From the NCBI GenBank assembly GCA_009784235.1, contig WRCC01000001.1, positions 241,506 to 305,505 on the forward strand: a stretch of 64,000 nt of DNA, in the 5' to 3' direction. The notes under the pieces were generated by a model. It was not told where the DNA came from and searched no databases. It saw only the letters and a list, made by a program, of their open reading frames with translations. The position numbers and the translations under genes are program-made. Of this stretch, positions 3,524-9,875 are shown in pieces; position 1 is the stretch's first letter; each line of letters starts with the position of its first letter. Source of the stretch: Alphaproteobacteria bacterium (GTDB lineage: Bacteria; Pseudomonadota; Alphaproteobacteria; Rs-D84).

Positions 3524-3581
3524 TGGTGGGTGTTACAGGATTCGAACCTGTGACCCAGTGATTAAAAGACACTTGCTCTAC
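3524..3581 (-). repeat. Distal att site: intronless tRNA-Lys 3' segment (tRNA fragment)
   Basis: 58 nt matching the spliced tRNA-Lys sequence with one mismatch, diverging after ctctac. Confidence 0.85.
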
Positions 3582-4878
3582 ATCTGCTCTGGCCCGTGGA
3601 AATATGCGGAATTTCGGGTATTAAATATTCATCATTTTCGGCCGTATGTAGCGGTTGTGTAAATGCCCCAATTATGGCCGCAGAAATCGCATCCGCGCCT
3701 TTTAATTGAAGGGCTTCGTTAGATTTCGCATATATCTCGGTCGTGCTTATTTGCGTATGCCCCAAAATGTTTTTGATGGTCAATAAATTTTCGCCCAAAG
3801 ACACACCCATGGTTGCGAATGAATGTCGCAGGTCATGAACCCGCAATCCTTCCAGATTTGATTCTTTTAAAATATGAAACCAAGGCCGCCGCAAATCGGC
3901 CAGCGGTCGTTTTTGACGTTTGGGCGATGGAAATACATATTTACCCGTATGCATGCTTAACGCATCGCGCAAGACGTCAATCGCCGCTTGCCCCAATGGA
4001 ACACTCTTTGCACCCGTCTTGCTGTCCGACAGGCGTAAAAATCGATTATTCAAATCGACTTCGGAACGTTTTAATGCGCGAATCTCGCCACACCGACAAC
4101 CAGTCAATGCCAACATCTTGATGACCAACATGGATGATTTACAATAAATCCGGCGATTATATATCGATTCCCATGTGGCCAGGAATCGCCGATAATCGTC
4201 TATACTCAATCGTTTAAACATCTTTTTCGGTTGTTTTAATCGTTGAATATGCCGACAAGGATTTGAATTCAACCGCAAGTATTCACGTCTTTCGCACCAG
4301 TTCCAAAAATGCGACATCAAAGCAAACACATGATTGGCCAACGATGGCGACCGGCGGCGAATAATATCATCATAAAAATTCTGCATCTTTGCCAAAGTTA
4401 AATCGGCAAGCTTCAAATGCCCAATCATCGGGAACACATTGTTTTTCGCCAAAGATTTATCCGCGGCATGACTGGCCGGTTTTTTATAATGCCGCGAATG
4501 CGAATTCAAATATTCTTCCATAACGTCTTTCACAAATCGTTGGCGCAATATGGTTCGGTTGCGCGCGATGCTTTTATCGCGCAATTCTTGCATCGGGTCG
4601 TGACCATCATGAACATCCAATCTGCAAACTTGCGCCTTTAATCTGGCATTCGCCACAGAAATATCGCCATATACGCCCAACATAAAATTCCGCTGAATCC
4701 GTTTTGAAAACCGGACGCTATAATGTTGATAAAACACCCGTCGGCCGGTGCGTGCGTAGTACCGAACATGAAATCCCGTAATCTTCGTGTCGGTAATATG
4801 TAAATCGATGTCTGAAGACAAGCGGCTTAAAAGGCTCTCCGTAATGTTTTTCTTCATAAATTTGCAATTTTTTGCCAT
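3562..4878 (-). CDS. Tyrosine recombinase/integrase
   Basis: LALTGCRCGEIRAL, VHDLRHSFATMGVSLGENLLTIKNILGHTQISTTEIYAK: catalytic R..HxxR..H/W..Y arrangement; N-term DUF4102-like. Confidence 0.95.
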   Translation of the reverse strand: MAKNCKFMKKNITESLLSRLSSDIDLHITDTKITGFHVRYYARTGRRVFYQHYSVRFSKRIQRNFMLGVYGDISVANARLKAQVCRLDVHDGHDPMQELRDKSIARNRTILRQRFVKDVMEEYLNSHSRHYKKPASHAADKSLAKNNVFPMIGHLKLADLTLAKMQNFYDDIIRRRSPSLANHVFALMSHFWNWCERREYLRLNSNPCRHIQRLKQPKKMFKRLSIDDYRRFLATWESIYNRRIYCKSSMLVIKMLALTGCRCGEIRALKRSEVDLNNRFLRLSDSKTGAKSVPLGQAAIDVLRDALSMHTGKYVFPSPKRQKRPLADLRRPWFHILKESNLEGLRVHDLRHSFATMGVSLGENLLTIKNILGHTQISTTEIYAKSNEALQLKGADAISAAIIGAFTQPLHTAENDEYLIPEIPHISTGQSRCRASVF

Positions 4879-4956: not shown

Positions 4957-7242
4957 ATGACTTCTTTAAAAATAAATAGTATTGATAAAATAGAGAATTT
5001 TTATTCGTTTAAATCTTTTGTAAGCCCAAGCGGATTACAAAGTTTTGCCAATAGAAATTTATTTTATGGATGGAACGGAACAGGCAAAACCACATTGTCC
5101 CAGTTTTTTGCAGAATTATCAAAAAATGACAATGCATTAAAGTATCCAAGTACAAAAATTCAAGTATCACTTTCAGATGGAAGTCAGATAAAGAATTTAG
5201 GAACAAATCCGCTGTCTAATATAAAAGCATTTAATCAATTTTTCGTTGAAGAAAATTGCAAGATTCAAAATGATAGGAACATAGCCCCCAGAATATTCTT
5301 GGGAAAAGATGTTGGGGATACGCTGACTAAAATTGCAGATAAAGAAAAAGAGATAACAACAGAAAAAGGACTTCAAAAAGATATAGATTACAATAATAAA
5401 AACAATGCTTTTGATGAATTTAAAAGTTCTGGCGCAGGAAAAGTAAAAACCGAGTTTACGATACCAACATATGGGCCAACTCATTTAGTAAGGGATATTG
5501 ATGCTGCAGCTGTATCTACAATAACATCAGATGATGAATATCTTTCTAAAAAGAAATCGATTTCCGAAGAAGGAAAATCCCTTTTAGCACAAGGCGCGCA
5601 GATTACAGAATTGCCAACCTTATCAATTGATGACTTGCCTGCATTATCGCAAGAGCCAATCACGTTAACTACTATCAAAGAATTAGAAGAAAATGAGATA
5701 TTAAAAAAATGGGTTGATGAAGGATATAGGTATTATACAGACAATAATTTAAATGCTTGTCAATTTTGTGGCGCAACATTGCAACAGGCAAGGATTGATG
5801 AACTTCAGGGATATTTCAATGATGCTAATACCAAACTCCAATCTCGGCTTAACGATATAGCCATACAACTGAATATACCATTACAAAATTTGCCCGATAG
5901 AAGCCTATTATTTTCAAGCATTGTATCAAAATTCGACCAGGCCAAAGAAGCGCTGGATAAAGCAACAACCGATTACAATACAAAAAAAGACGAGATTGTT
6001 ACGAAGATAAACAATAAGAAAAAAAATCCGGACAAATCAGATAATGATGTGTGCGTAAGCACTGGTATGCTAAGCGCTCTTTTGATAAGTCGACAAAATT
6101 TGCAGAATGCCATTGTTGGAATAAAGACGACCTTAGAAGAACATGATACCATAGTTAATAATTTTAAAACTGAAAAAGATGAAGCTTTCAACCAATGTAA
6201 GCGCTATTTTATAGAAAAACATGTCCTTGCGGAGTATTCTACTAAAAAAACAGACCTAGAAACTTCGAAATTTGCACATGATGCAAAACAAATCGTGATC
6301 GACAGATTGCAGGAAGAAAAACAAGGTTTGGATAACAGTATATCTAGCAATAATCCTACAATAATAAATGAATTTATTGAAAAACTGATTGGCAATCAAA
6401 ATTTCAAACTGGAAGAAACGGCCGATAAAAAAGGATATCTATTATCGCGGAGTATAGATAATAAATATGAACGCGCGGAAAAAGTTAGTGAAGGCGAACA
6501 AACTATAATCGCATTTGCATATTTTTTAGGAACTTTGCATGAAAGTGGAGTTAATATCGCAGACACAATAATTGTCATTGACGACCCAGTATCAAGCTTG
6601 GATTCAAACTTTATCCATAACATTGTTGATATTATAGATAACGAGATTATAAAAAAGAATCCGGCACAACTTTTTGTGCTAACGCATAACTTTTATTTTT
6701 TTAAGTTAATGAGCAGAGCTATGGGGGGACTGAAGCCAGAAAATATTTATAGGGTTGATAAAGACGATAGCGGTTCTTATATAAGAAATGCAGAGAGGTC
6801 ATTAGCAGTACATAAGAATGAATATTTGTTTTTAGCTGATTATCTGAAAGAAAACCATACAGCCACCAAGCAAAAAACTCCATCTGATGATGATTTAGTG
6901 CACGGAACCAATATTATAAATTCCATTCGCCGTTTTCTTGAGGTATTTCTATCGTTCAAATATCCAAGAATAAAAAATGAAGACGGAAAAGATATCCCTA
7001 AAGGTGATGGATTCACAAAACATATGGAGGAATTTTACAAACATCACCCTACATATGCATCAGCAAAAAGAATATGTGGTTTAGCGAATAGATATTCTCA
7101 TGAAACCATGACTAGTGTAGAAGCCGATCCTTGGATATCAGGAATAGTGGACATAAAGTCATTATTAGAAGAATTTATGCTCTTTGTAAAACATATGGAT
7201 GAGCCCCATTATAAATCTCTGTTTGACATTTCTGAACCATAA
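4957..7242 (+). CDS. RloC/PrrC-like AAA (AAA_13) ATPase, putative anticodon nuclease
   Basis: Walker A GWNGTGKTT; CQFCG zinc-hook-like CxxC in coiled coil; SEGEQTIIAFAYFL signature; IIVIDDPVSSLD Walker B; C-terminal RRFLE and ANRYSHE motifs. Confidence 0.8.
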   Translation: MTSLKINSIDKIENFYSFKSFVSPSGLQSFANRNLFYGWNGTGKTTLSQFFAELSKNDNALKYPSTKIQVSLSDGSQIKNLGTNPLSNIKAFNQFFVEENCKIQNDRNIAPRIFLGKDVGDTLTKIADKEKEITTEKGLQKDIDYNNKNNAFDEFKSSGAGKVKTEFTIPTYGPTHLVRDIDAAAVSTITSDDEYLSKKKSISEEGKSLLAQGAQITELPTLSIDDLPALSQEPITLTTIKELEENEILKKWVDEGYRYYTDNNLNACQFCGATLQQARIDELQGYFNDANTKLQSRLNDIAIQLNIPLQNLPDRSLLFSSIVSKFDQAKEALDKATTDYNTKKDEIVTKINNKKKNPDKSDNDVCVSTGMLSALLISRQNLQNAIVGIKTTLEEHDTIVNNFKTEKDEAFNQCKRYFIEKHVLAEYSTKKTDLETSKFAHDAKQIVIDRLQEEKQGLDNSISSNNPTIINEFIEKLIGNQNFKLEETADKKGYLLSRSIDNKYERAEKVSEGEQTIIAFAYFLGTLHESGVNIADTIIVIDDPVSSLDSNFIHNIVDIIDNEIIKKNPAQLFVLTHNFYFFKLMSRAMGGLKPENIYRVDKDDSGSYIRNAERSLAVHKNEYLFLADYLKENHTATKQKTPSDDDLVHGTNIINSIRRFLEVFLSFKYPRIKNEDGKDIPKGDGFTKHMEEFYKHHPTYASAKRICGLANRYSHETMTSVEADPWISGIVDIKSLLEEFMLFVKHMDEPHYKSLFDISEP

Positions 7243-7248
7243 TAAACA

Positions 7249-8145
7249 ATGAGCGTAGTAAACATGAATACAAAATTTCTTCAATTCCTCCCGTTGGTTA
7301 TATCATTGCTTATTGGTGCGGGGATATATTGCATTGCTGTTTATTGCGTTCCGGTTGACCATGATAATTTAAAATCTTTAATTATAAATTTATCAGCTGC
7401 ATTGATGGCGATAACTATAACTTATTTTTCATATAATTTAATTAAAGACATTACGGAACGTAAGCTGAACAAGACATTATTTCACTATTCAAAAGAAAGA
7501 ATTGATAATGAAATTATAAGCATTTTGATACAGGTGCAAAAAATGCTTTATTCATTCGAAAACTTGGACAGGTCTTTTAATGGGTTATCAGCCATGCTTG
7601 ATATATCGGAAGAAGATTTGAAAAAACAAATATCTGGTGTGGAATTGTTGGGCTATCAAATTTTCAAAGAATGGGATTTTACTTTGAATAACATTGAAAA
7701 AATAATTGAGAACGCATATACCTTGAAATATTTAACAAATGACCAAATTATATCGCTTGTAAGAATTTTAAGTGGTGTTGAAAGATTGAATAATATGTAC
7801 AGATTTGGCAAAGACAATGTATTTGTTGATACCGGCAAGGTCAGCCATGAACATATGATTGTCCCACCTTATCAATCAAATCTACCAAAACGCTCAATTT
7901 TACTTAAAAAGATAGAAGGCAAACTGGACGAAGGCATAGTTGTTGACCATGGCGACATCCCGCAAGATGATTTGAAGCGAGCATTAAACATCTATAAAGT
8001 GAAAGAAATTGATGAATATTTTAATACTATTGGATTTTTATTAGCCGAAATCCATTATTGGAAAAGCGTAACTGGAAATGAATTATTTATTTCTATAAGA
8101 GACAAAAGATTATTCAATCCAGTTACAAGAAAGCTAGTTTATTAA
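7249..8145 (+). CDS. Hypothetical membrane protein linked to the RloC-like gene
   Basis: ORF starting 6 nt downstream of the ATPase stop; two N-terminal TM helices. Confidence 0.7.
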   Translation: MSVVNMNTKFLQFLPLVISLLIGAGIYCIAVYCVPVDHDNLKSLIINLSAALMAITITYFSYNLIKDITERKLNKTLFHYSKERIDNEIISILIQVQKMLYSFENLDRSFNGLSAMLDISEEDLKKQISGVELLGYQIFKEWDFTLNNIEKIIENAYTLKYLTNDQIISLVRILSGVERLNNMYRFGKDNVFVDTGKVSHEHMIVPPYQSNLPKRSILLKKIEGKLDEGIVVDHGDIPQDDLKRALNIYKVKEIDEYFNTIGFLLAEIHYWKSVTGNELFISIRDKRLFNPVTRKLVY

Positions 8146-8147
8146 AA

Positions 8148-8570
8148 CTATAGATTCACAATTTCAATATCTGAAAAATGCTTCAGCAAATATTCCGCGG
8201 CAAGGCGGCGGTGGCATTTGTCGGCGGATTTTTCAGAGCATAGAAAACATAGGTTGTTTAAATCGGCGGTGGAAAATAATTTTTCGATTTGGCGGTCGGT
8301 AATGATGCGGTTGAATTCTTGTTCATAGCCAGGCCAGTCGATTTTGCCGTCTTTATATGCGGACAATAATTCTTTGGTTGGGGCCAATTCTGGCATATAT
8401 TTATATCGGTTGGCTAATATATTAGACAGGTTTGTCCCACTTGCCCATGGAACGAAACGTGCGGTGCGCCACAGGCGGATGTCTACTATAGTGGACACAC
8501 CAACTGCGTCAATTATTTCCATAAACTGGTCTTTGGTTTTGCCTGAAAATCCGATTGTGTATATTGTCAT
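8148..8570 (-). CDS. DUF488 family protein
   Basis: TIYTIGFSGKTKDQFMEII, VDIR, CFLCSEKSADKCHRRLAAEYL. Confidence 0.9.
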   Translation of the reverse strand: MTIYTIGFSGKTKDQFMEIIDAVGVSTIVDIRLWRTARFVPWASGTNLSNILANRYKYMPELAPTKELLSAYKDGKIDWPGYEQEFNRIITDRQIEKLFSTADLNNLCFLCSEKSADKCHRRLAAEYLLKHFSDIEIVNL

Positions 8571-8571
8571 G

Positions 8572-9228
8572 TTAATACAAGAATAATCCGTTCAGCATTA
8601 AATAGCAATGATTCTCTTGCATTAAAAACGGACGCGCCAAGCCGATACGCAAATGAATTCTGCCAACAGATAACACAGATTTATTCAAGGTCTCTATGTT
8701 CTTTGAATCTTCAAAAATATCTCTTATATGTTTACAGCTGACTTTTAAGCAATATTTTTTACCATCGTTATCTATGATATTTGCCCGAAGCTTTCCATTT
8801 TCGATTACGAATTCAACATTTTCCGCAGGCAAATCTATTGCCCCAAGAGATGGACATTTTGTGCTTTTTAAAATATAAGAATTTTCTTTGACTTTATTAT
8901 TGAATATTGAACTGATGTTATCAGAAACAGAAGCACGAACACGCAACGCGATATCCTTGCCTTTGGAATAACTTTCTTTAATTTGTAATGTATTAAGGTC
9001 GACATTTACATCCTCGGTTCTATGCGGCCAATCGCGTGGCTCTTTTAGAACTTCATTATGAATCACAATCCAAGAATGCCCTTTAAGTTTTGCAAGATTC
9101 GCTTCATCCCAATAACCCCGGTCAATAAGAAGTCTTTTCATGCGAAGCTCCCCTATATCCCAACCGGCGATGCAGAATTTTTCTTTCATGTTTGTTATAT
9201 CTGAAATAATTATATTTGATGGTTTCAT
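8572..9228 (-). CDS. Hypothetical protein, possibly a dual-OB-type domain protein, paired with DUF488
   Basis: Start MKPSNIIISDITNMKEKFCIAGWD inside ORF 8572..9336; repeated beta-rich segments; stop 2 nt from DUF488 start. Confidence 0.6.
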   Translation of the reverse strand: MKPSNIIISDITNMKEKFCIAGWDIGELRMKRLLIDRGYWDEANLAKLKGHSWIVIHNEVLKEPRDWPHRTEDVNVDLNTLQIKESYSKGKDIALRVRASVSDNISSIFNNKVKENSYILKSTKCPSLGAIDLPAENVEFVIENGKLRANIIDNDGKKYCLKVSCKHIRDIFEDSKNIETLNKSVLSVGRIHLRIGLARPFLMQENHCYLMLNGLFLY

Positions 9229-9241
9229 TTTGGTTCCTTTG

Positions 9242-9273
9242 ATAAAAAAAGCCCGCATGATGCGGGCATAAAA
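9242..9273. terminator. Terminator hairpin
   Basis: aaaaaaagcccgcatgatgcgggcataaaaaa. Confidence 0.65.
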
Positions 9274-9372
9274 AATGGCGACCACTGGTCGCTTTGTTTG
9301 TGAGAGTATTATATCAGAACTCGCGATAAAAAGCAACGAAAAAACGCAGCGGAAGCTGCGTTTCTTTGTTCT

Positions 9373-9664
9373 TGGTGGGTGTTACAGGATTCGAACCTGT
9401 GACCCAGTGATTACTTTACCACTTCGTCTTTCGGCGCCCCTTGCGGGTTCGTGGTCTGGACCATGTCTTTATCCCATTGGGATAGTCGGTGTATGGCCTC
9501 TACACTCGGTTTTTCAACCTAGCTCGGCGTTACCACGTCTTGCGACAGAGGATTCACCGAATTAGCCGACTTTTCATTTCAGAATTACTTCTGAACGCTC
9601 CTAATTTCCGGATATTGTGCCGGAAGCCAAAAGTCACTTGCTCTACCAACTGAGCTAAACACCC
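9373..9664 (-). tRNA. tRNA-Lys(UUU), interrupted in the anticodon loop by a group I intron (exons 9630-9664 and 9373-9413)
   Basis: Reverse complement exons GGGTGTTTAGCTCAGTTGGTAGAGCAAGTGACTTT + TAATCACTGGGTCACAGGTTCGAATCCTGTAACACCCACCA form a canonical tRNA. Confidence 0.93.
9414..9629 (-). other. Group I self-splicing intron (~216 nt, no ORF)
   Basis: Core elements: AATTCGGTGAATCC (P/Q-like), GGTAACGCCGAGCTA, CCGACTATCCCAATGGGATAAAGACATGGTCC (P8 hairpin TCCC-AAT-GGGA, P7 GACTAT/ATGGTC), P3 AGTCGG/CCGACT; terminal G. Confidence 0.92.
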
Positions 9665-9814
9665 AAGAAAGGTGTGATGTAGATTTTGATGTAGATATGA
9701 TGTAGATTTTAACATCAAACCAAATCAAATTCAATCATCTTTCAGAGCGGTGCGCTTTTCTTGAAAAAGCATTTTTGTTCAGATAAATAGCGCTCTGTAG
9801 CCATTTATCGTCTT

Positions 9815-9875
9815 TGGTGGGCGAATAACAATCGCTGTTAAAAGTCACTTGCTCTACCAACTGAGCTAACAACCC
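9815..9875 (-). pseudogene. tRNA-Lys-like fragment: intact 5' half through anticodon loop, degenerate 3' half ending in CCA
   Basis: rc GGGTTGTTAGCTCAGTTGGTAGAGCAAGTGACTTTTAACAGCGATTGTTATTCGCCCACCA; no T-arm. Confidence 0.7.

Follow-up and report, generated by a model that had tools for sequence, protein, structure and literature searches.

Why should the tRNA-Lys(UUU) gene of an alphaproteobacterium be interrupted in its anticodon loop by a group I intron, and what does the surrounding DNA say about how the intron came to be there? The first-pass annotation of the window (the whole stretch of 64,000 nucleotides that was analysed) had placed such an intron gene at 9373-9664, and these coordinates were correct; the strand, which had been left unstated, is minus. 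The gene, which is referred to below as the replacement gene, consists of three parts:

9630 to 9664, minus strand: exon 1 (tRNA positions 1-35) of the replacement tRNA-Lys(UUU), from ARAGORN and the folding of the spliced sequence
9414 to 9629, minus strand: group I intron of 216 nt without an ORF of note, from RF00028, P1/P10 and covariation
9373 to 9413, minus strand: exon 2 (tRNA positions 36-73) with the encoded CCA, from the folding of the spliced sequence

The tRNA-Lys(UUU) gene proper runs from 9664 to 9376 on the minus strand, with the encoded CCA extending to 9373, and the intron is inserted between anticodon bases 35 and 36. ARAGORN reported the gene only when introns were allowed, as a tRNA-Lys(ttt) with a 216-nt C-loop intron, and the spliced sequence gave a regular tRNA-Lys(ttt) fold. 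The Rfam search proposed in the first-pass annotation returned a match to the whole of the RF00028 (Intron_gpI) model at 9633-9416(-), with 44.3 bits and an E-value of 9.6e-10 (1.2 kb searched); because this score is lower than the gathering score of 50, a default Rfam scan is silent on the intron. The splice sites were assigned from P1, P10 and the terminal G. The internal guide sequence, AUUAGGAG at 9605-9598, provides the guide AUUA-GGAG, whose GGAG pairs with CUUU at the end of the 5' exon to form P1, with a U.G pair at the 5' splice site, and whose AUUA pairs with UAAU at the start of the 3' exon to form P10; the G that terminates the intron is position 9414.

The core of the intron comprises P3 (GUCGG/CCGAC), P4 (UCGGUG/CGCCGA), P7 (GGCCAU/AUGGUC) and P8 (UAUCCC/GGGAUA), together with a P2 capped by GUAA. 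The core elements named in the first pass stand, with the exception of the P7 strand GACTAT, which overlaps P3' and P8. Across 31 related introns 96.7% of the cells are paired, double changes occur at 27 of the 43 pairs, and the covariation is 0.349, compared with 0.117 for shuffled and at most 0.076 for slid alignments. P7 covaries although it is absent from the search model, and the P3-P9 core, including the P3/P7 pseudoknot, is present with covariation. The Rfam match, the splice-site pairing, the tRNA folding and the covariation all support the original call, and we conclude that the sequence at 9629-9414 is a group I intron, subgroup-IC3-like, in the anticodon loop of tRNA-Lys(UUU). At 216 nt it is too short to hold an endonuclease gene, and none was noted among the neighbouring ORFs.

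The source genome (G000) is 875 kb in size and 97.9% complete. A further 42 tRNA matches in it pass the Rfam cut-off, and the sole other Lys gene among them is tRNA-Lys(CUU). A second, intact tRNA-Lys(UUU), the observation that the first pass had said would speak against its reading, was looked for and not found in this 97.9%-complete assembly, in which a gap could hide a copy. The 30 window ORFs with 300 or more codons contain 564 AAA codons, and rpsD contains 20. As the intron-bearing gene has no tRNA-Lys(UUU) counterpart among the genes found, its intron is presumably spliced. In the congeneric genomes G012 and G026, but not in G000, a tRNA-Lys(UUU) gene lies near rpoD; the rpsD and rpoD neighbourhoods in congeners did not show an empty site.

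The first-pass annotation, which was right about the intron gene, had missed what surrounds it, namely an integrated element of about 6.3 kb and the broken halves of a native tRNA-Lys(UUU) gene. The features of the element and its junctions are as follows:

9838 to 9875, minus strand: 5' half of the native tRNA-Lys(UUU), GGGTTGTTAGCTCAGTTGGTAGAGCAAGTGACTTTTAA, outside the element on the attL side, from its match to the G012 gene
9675 to 9710, unstranded: three direct repeats of TGATGTAGAT, starting at 9675, 9687 and 9698, between the broken 5' half and the replacement tRNA
8572 to 9336, minus strand: cargo ORF of 254 aa with a weakly matched DuOB domain (Pfam PF22557, E 3e-6)
8148 to 8570, minus strand: cargo ORF of 140 aa, DUF488, PADLOC PDC-M45C
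7249 to 8145, plus strand: cargo ORF of 298 aa without a family match
4957 to 7242, plus strand: cargo ORF of 761 aa, AAA_13 ATPase, PADLOC candidate defence family PDC-S06
3562 to 4878, minus strand: tyrosine integrase of 438 aa (Pfam Phage_integrase, E 1.9e-23) with an arm-binding domain
3524 to 3581, minus strand: right att site, made up of element-derived TAGAGCAAGTGT, the loop core CTTTTAA at 3568-3562 and the displaced tRNA-Lys 3' half at 3561-3524

The native 5' half (9875-9838) matches the intact tRNA-Lys(UUU) gene of the congener G012 with 100% identity over positions 1-38. Beyond the anticodon loop, CTTTTAA, the sequence is unrelated to the tRNA, unlike in a canonical island, in which attP restores the target tRNA. 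Both native halves thus flank the element, broken at the same 7-nt loop, and the 3' end of the integrase gene runs into the right att site. The locus therefore combines a tyrosine integrase, an attB within a tRNA gene that is rebuilt at neither junction, and a complete tRNA gene inside the element, near attL. This replacement tRNA-Lys is foreign, since its acceptor stem begins GGGTGTT and that of the native 5' half GGGTTGT. The TGATGTAGAT repeats are possible arm-type integrase sites. The displaced 3' half (3561-3524) ends in AACACCC, which matches the intron-bearing copy and not the GGGTTGT of the native 5' half (9875-9838); this mismatch suggests that a gene conversion or a second integration may have taken place.

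Two of the four cargo genes between the att sites match candidate anti-phage defence families. The AAA_13 ORF has a Pfam E-value of 2.8e-102, a PADLOC PDC-S06 E-value of 7e-103 and a partial match to PrrC (E 7e-14). Its product (4957-7242) contains a CQFC motif and, towards the C-terminus, an RRFLE...SHE stretch that recalls the PrrC/RloC anticodon nucleases, and was without a match among solved structures.

Similar arrangements were found in other Alphaproteobacteria. The first pass had regarded tRNA-Lys as a less familiar host for such an intron; the identity of the host holds, but it is not unique, as introns in tRNA-Lys genes are also present in G012, G157, G573, G431, G284, G571 and G257. 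In G012 the intron resides in tRNA-Lys(CUU) and the UUU gene is intronless, the reverse of G000; the tRNA and intron region is 76% identical to that of the window, and neither a remnant nor an integrase adjoins it. A broken tRNA-Lys 5' half precedes the intron-bearing tRNA-Lys by 85-135 bp in G157, a member of the same order, and in G573 and G571, of the same class. The G573 element, which carries tRNA-Lys(CUU), is 2.6 kb long; there and in G341 the two native halves could be located, their acceptor stems complementary to each other and different from that of the intron copy. Elements in tRNA-Leu(UAA) with both native halves and matching acceptor stems were identified in G341, G659 and G300. 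Overall, a truncated native 5' half lies upstream in 12 of 40 alphaproteobacterial intron-tRNA loci, 6 of which have an integrase ORF between the remnant and the intron tRNA, and is absent from the other 28. As a control, an unassigned 5' half within 400 bp upstream was seen for 4 of the 94 intronless tRNAs of the fetched loci, and these four were three tRNA-Arg elements related to the window's integrase and one tRNA-Val duplicate. The intron, the broken halves, the integrase, the foreign replacement and the recurrence of the layout in other genomes are, as far as sequence comparison can tell, well supported.

Several further loci were noted. At L050 (G026) a degenerate, near-complete tRNA-Val copy precedes tRNA-Val(UAC). 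At L081 (G326) an intron-bearing tRNA-Thr(CGU) has a decayed native 5' half 174 bp upstream, and tRNA-Thr is a further possible target. At L148 (G643), about 1.37 kb downstream of the intron-bearing tRNA-Leu, a tRNA-Leu 3' exon is fused to the 3' end of another intron, and this piece is probably the leftover of a tandem element. The group I intron match at L039 (G071), which is accompanied by a small ORF and lies within a phage terminase region, was unrelated to the tRNA introns, and five viral-contig matches from a pattern scan were chance matches to tRNA clusters, none of which had an intron.

Four integrases from the six loci with an integrase between the remnant and the intron tRNA were aligned (A3), and the alignment was used to search GTDB species genomes, Acidobacteria included; 80 loci were kept. 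A tRNA-Leu 5' remnant was present 130-250 bp upstream in 69 of these 80, and a complete tRNA-Leu was often found 44-231 bp downstream. Where the remnant was tRNA-Leu(UAA), the replacement carried an intron in 33 of 35 scorable loci; one of the two exceptions, L251, retains a 3' intron segment at a junction that may be chimeric. Where it was tRNA-Leu(CAA), none of 28 loci had an intron, 10 having an intronless copy and 18 no copy. UUA is read by tRNA-Leu(UAA) alone, whereas UUG can be read by both the UAA and the CAA tRNAs, which fits a dispensable CAA gene. Among the remnant-copy pairs, the 9-nt core (GACTTAAAA or GACTCAAAA) was identical in all 32 intron copies and changed in all 10 intronless copies. 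The nominal p-values for these counts, 7e-16 and 2e-10, overstate the evidence, because the loci are related by descent and do not give independent counts. Acidobacterial elements of the A3 family at L238, L246, L250 and L253 break tRNA-Leu(CAA) and have no replacement tRNA beside the integrase. The layout also occurs in records that are not labelled as metagenome-assembled genomes (MAGs), among them those of Sphingomonas echinoides ATCC 14820 (L291), Edaphobacter lichenicola M8US30 (L243) and Sphingobium lactosutens DS20 (L280). In the A3 matches on plasmids pSA1 and pASEM-1 the upstream tRNA site looks conventional, and downstream there is no replacement tRNA.

Relatives of the window's integrase within the same bacterial family (38-40% identity) lie beside tRNA-Arg(UCU). 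Each of the five loci examined has a broken tRNA-Arg 5' half followed, about 240 bp on, by a tRNA-Arg(UCU) that lacks an intron and has its anticodon stem recoded, to ATTGC in place of ACAGA or TCGGA. Both integrase families thus hold both solutions, a recoded stem or an intron. Candidate attP cores of four actinophages were also compared with the phages' own tRNAs. LeBron and Eponine, from groups that use tRNA-dependent lysogeny, carry their own tRNA-Lys with a recoded core, whereas the tRNAs of OneUp and Clautastrophe are intronless with the loop core intact. The proposition that every replacement tRNA must lose its att core accordingly held in two of the four phages, and masking is not a general law; the intact cores of OneUp and Clautastrophe lowered our confidence in a shielding role.

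The window element probably follows a modified form of tRNA-dependent lysogeny, the replacement tRNA being concealed by its group I intron from the integrase that the element itself encodes. The element would recombine, through its tyrosine integrase, at the anticodon loop of the one tRNA-Lys(UUU) gene that the host has; the native gene would not be rebuilt, its two halves ending at the two ends of the element, and the whole foreign tRNA-Lys(UUU) gene on the element would keep the cell alive. The anticodon stem-loop of the replacement is that of the target, and an intronless version would be expected to carry the target core. The intron would split this core by 216 bp in the DNA, and its removal from the RNA would yield a normal tRNA. 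We infer that the intron is self-splicing, that the element is active and that hiding of the att core is the reason why the intron has been retained. Points against this reading are that 28 of the 40 intron-tRNA loci lack a 5' remnant, that the displaced 3' half in the window calls for a gene conversion or a second event, and that the CUU replacement in G573 and G157 may not be essential.

The intron could instead be a neutral passenger without a role against the integrase, captured by chance with an intron-bearing tRNA in an ancestral element and spread by descent, while the element does replace the broken tRNA. Group I introns in tRNA genes are an old family, the elements within one integrase family share descent, and the two intronless actinophage tRNAs with intact cores agree with such a history. 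We nevertheless consider it rather unlikely, as an unchanged core goes with an intron for the Lys-type (window) and for the unrelated Leu-type (A3) integrases, each of which also has intronless relatives whose core is changed, and as all the introns examined are situated in the recombination loop. That the intron is an ordinary one in a chromosomal tRNA gene, with the tRNA fragments and integrase nearby by coincidence, would suit the G012 tRNA-Lys(CUU) locus, which lacks both; this account is very improbable, given that 12 of the 40 loci and most of the 80 from the A3 family share the remnant and intron-tRNA layout and that an unassigned remnant is rare beside intronless tRNAs (4 of 94, three of them in related elements).

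A role for the cargo is harder still to sustain. The intron tRNA might protect the host from the AAA_13 protein, which is possibly related to the tRNA-Lys-cutting PrrC/RloC anticodon nucleases and is encoded, as the PDC-S06 candidate with its partial PrrC match, in the same element; the spliced, mature tRNA, however, has a normal anticodon loop, so that no resistance is expected, other elements of this layout carry different cargo, and the PrrC match spans only part of the protein, all of which makes protection a far-fetched explanation. Misassembly of repeated tRNA sequences has the least to recommend it: the 41-bp 3' exon is present twice in the window and many loci come from metagenome assemblies, but the layout is also found in records without a MAG label, such as L291, L243 and L280.

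Group I introns are known in bacterial tRNA genes from Azoarcus tRNA-Ile, Agrobacterium tRNA-Arg and cyanobacterial tRNA-Leu(UAA). The intron described here resembles these in being small, with an IC3-like core and without an ORF, and in lying in the anticodon loop; it differs in its tRNA-Lys host, in its insertion at 35/36 and in the integrase element that adjoins the replaced gene. The class of the intron is known, and what is new is its place, on the replacement tRNA of an integrase element and at that element's own recombination loop. Our search of the open-licence literature found no description of a group I intron, a tRNA and an integrase in this combination. The closest parallel to integration without restoration is the tRNA-dependent lysogeny of actinobacteriophages, which includes tRNA-Lys-TTT (Guerrero-Bustamante and Hatfull 2024, PMC10865867). 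There, too, a tyrosine integrase recombines in the anticodon loop and the target is not rebuilt, but an intron in the phage tRNA is not described and self-targeting is not discussed, whereas the present elements are alphaproteobacterial and acidobacterial, with the replacement near attL and a group I intron inside it. The canonical tRNA-targeting islands (Islander, PMC4383910) likewise have a tyrosine integrase, an attB in a tRNA gene and a displaced tRNA fragment at the island end; their attP restores the target, whereas in the present elements the native gene is left in two pieces and a second, complete gene takes its place. In the archaeal disruption of tRNA-Thr by mobile elements (Sugahara et al. 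2012, PMC3293823), the gain of a tRNA intron and a 5' fragment are similarly tied to integration, but the introns are removed by protein enzymes and no replacement tRNA is shielded from the element's own integrase.

For the role of group I introns in tRNA genes, and for their spread without homing endonucleases, the elements described here offer a concrete carrier and a possible, testable use, the masking of the replacement tRNA's att site, and they extend tRNA-dependent lysogeny from actinophages to elements of Alphaproteobacteria and Acidobacteria. It has long been suggested that tRNA introns guard tRNA genes against integration, and our finding bears on that suggestion. On balance we favour the view that a group I intron in a bacterial tRNA gene can serve as a shield at the level of the DNA, in that integrase elements which destroy an essential tRNA would use a self-splicing intron to conceal the att core of their replacement gene; if so, such elements would be one vehicle by which tRNA introns spread among bacteria.
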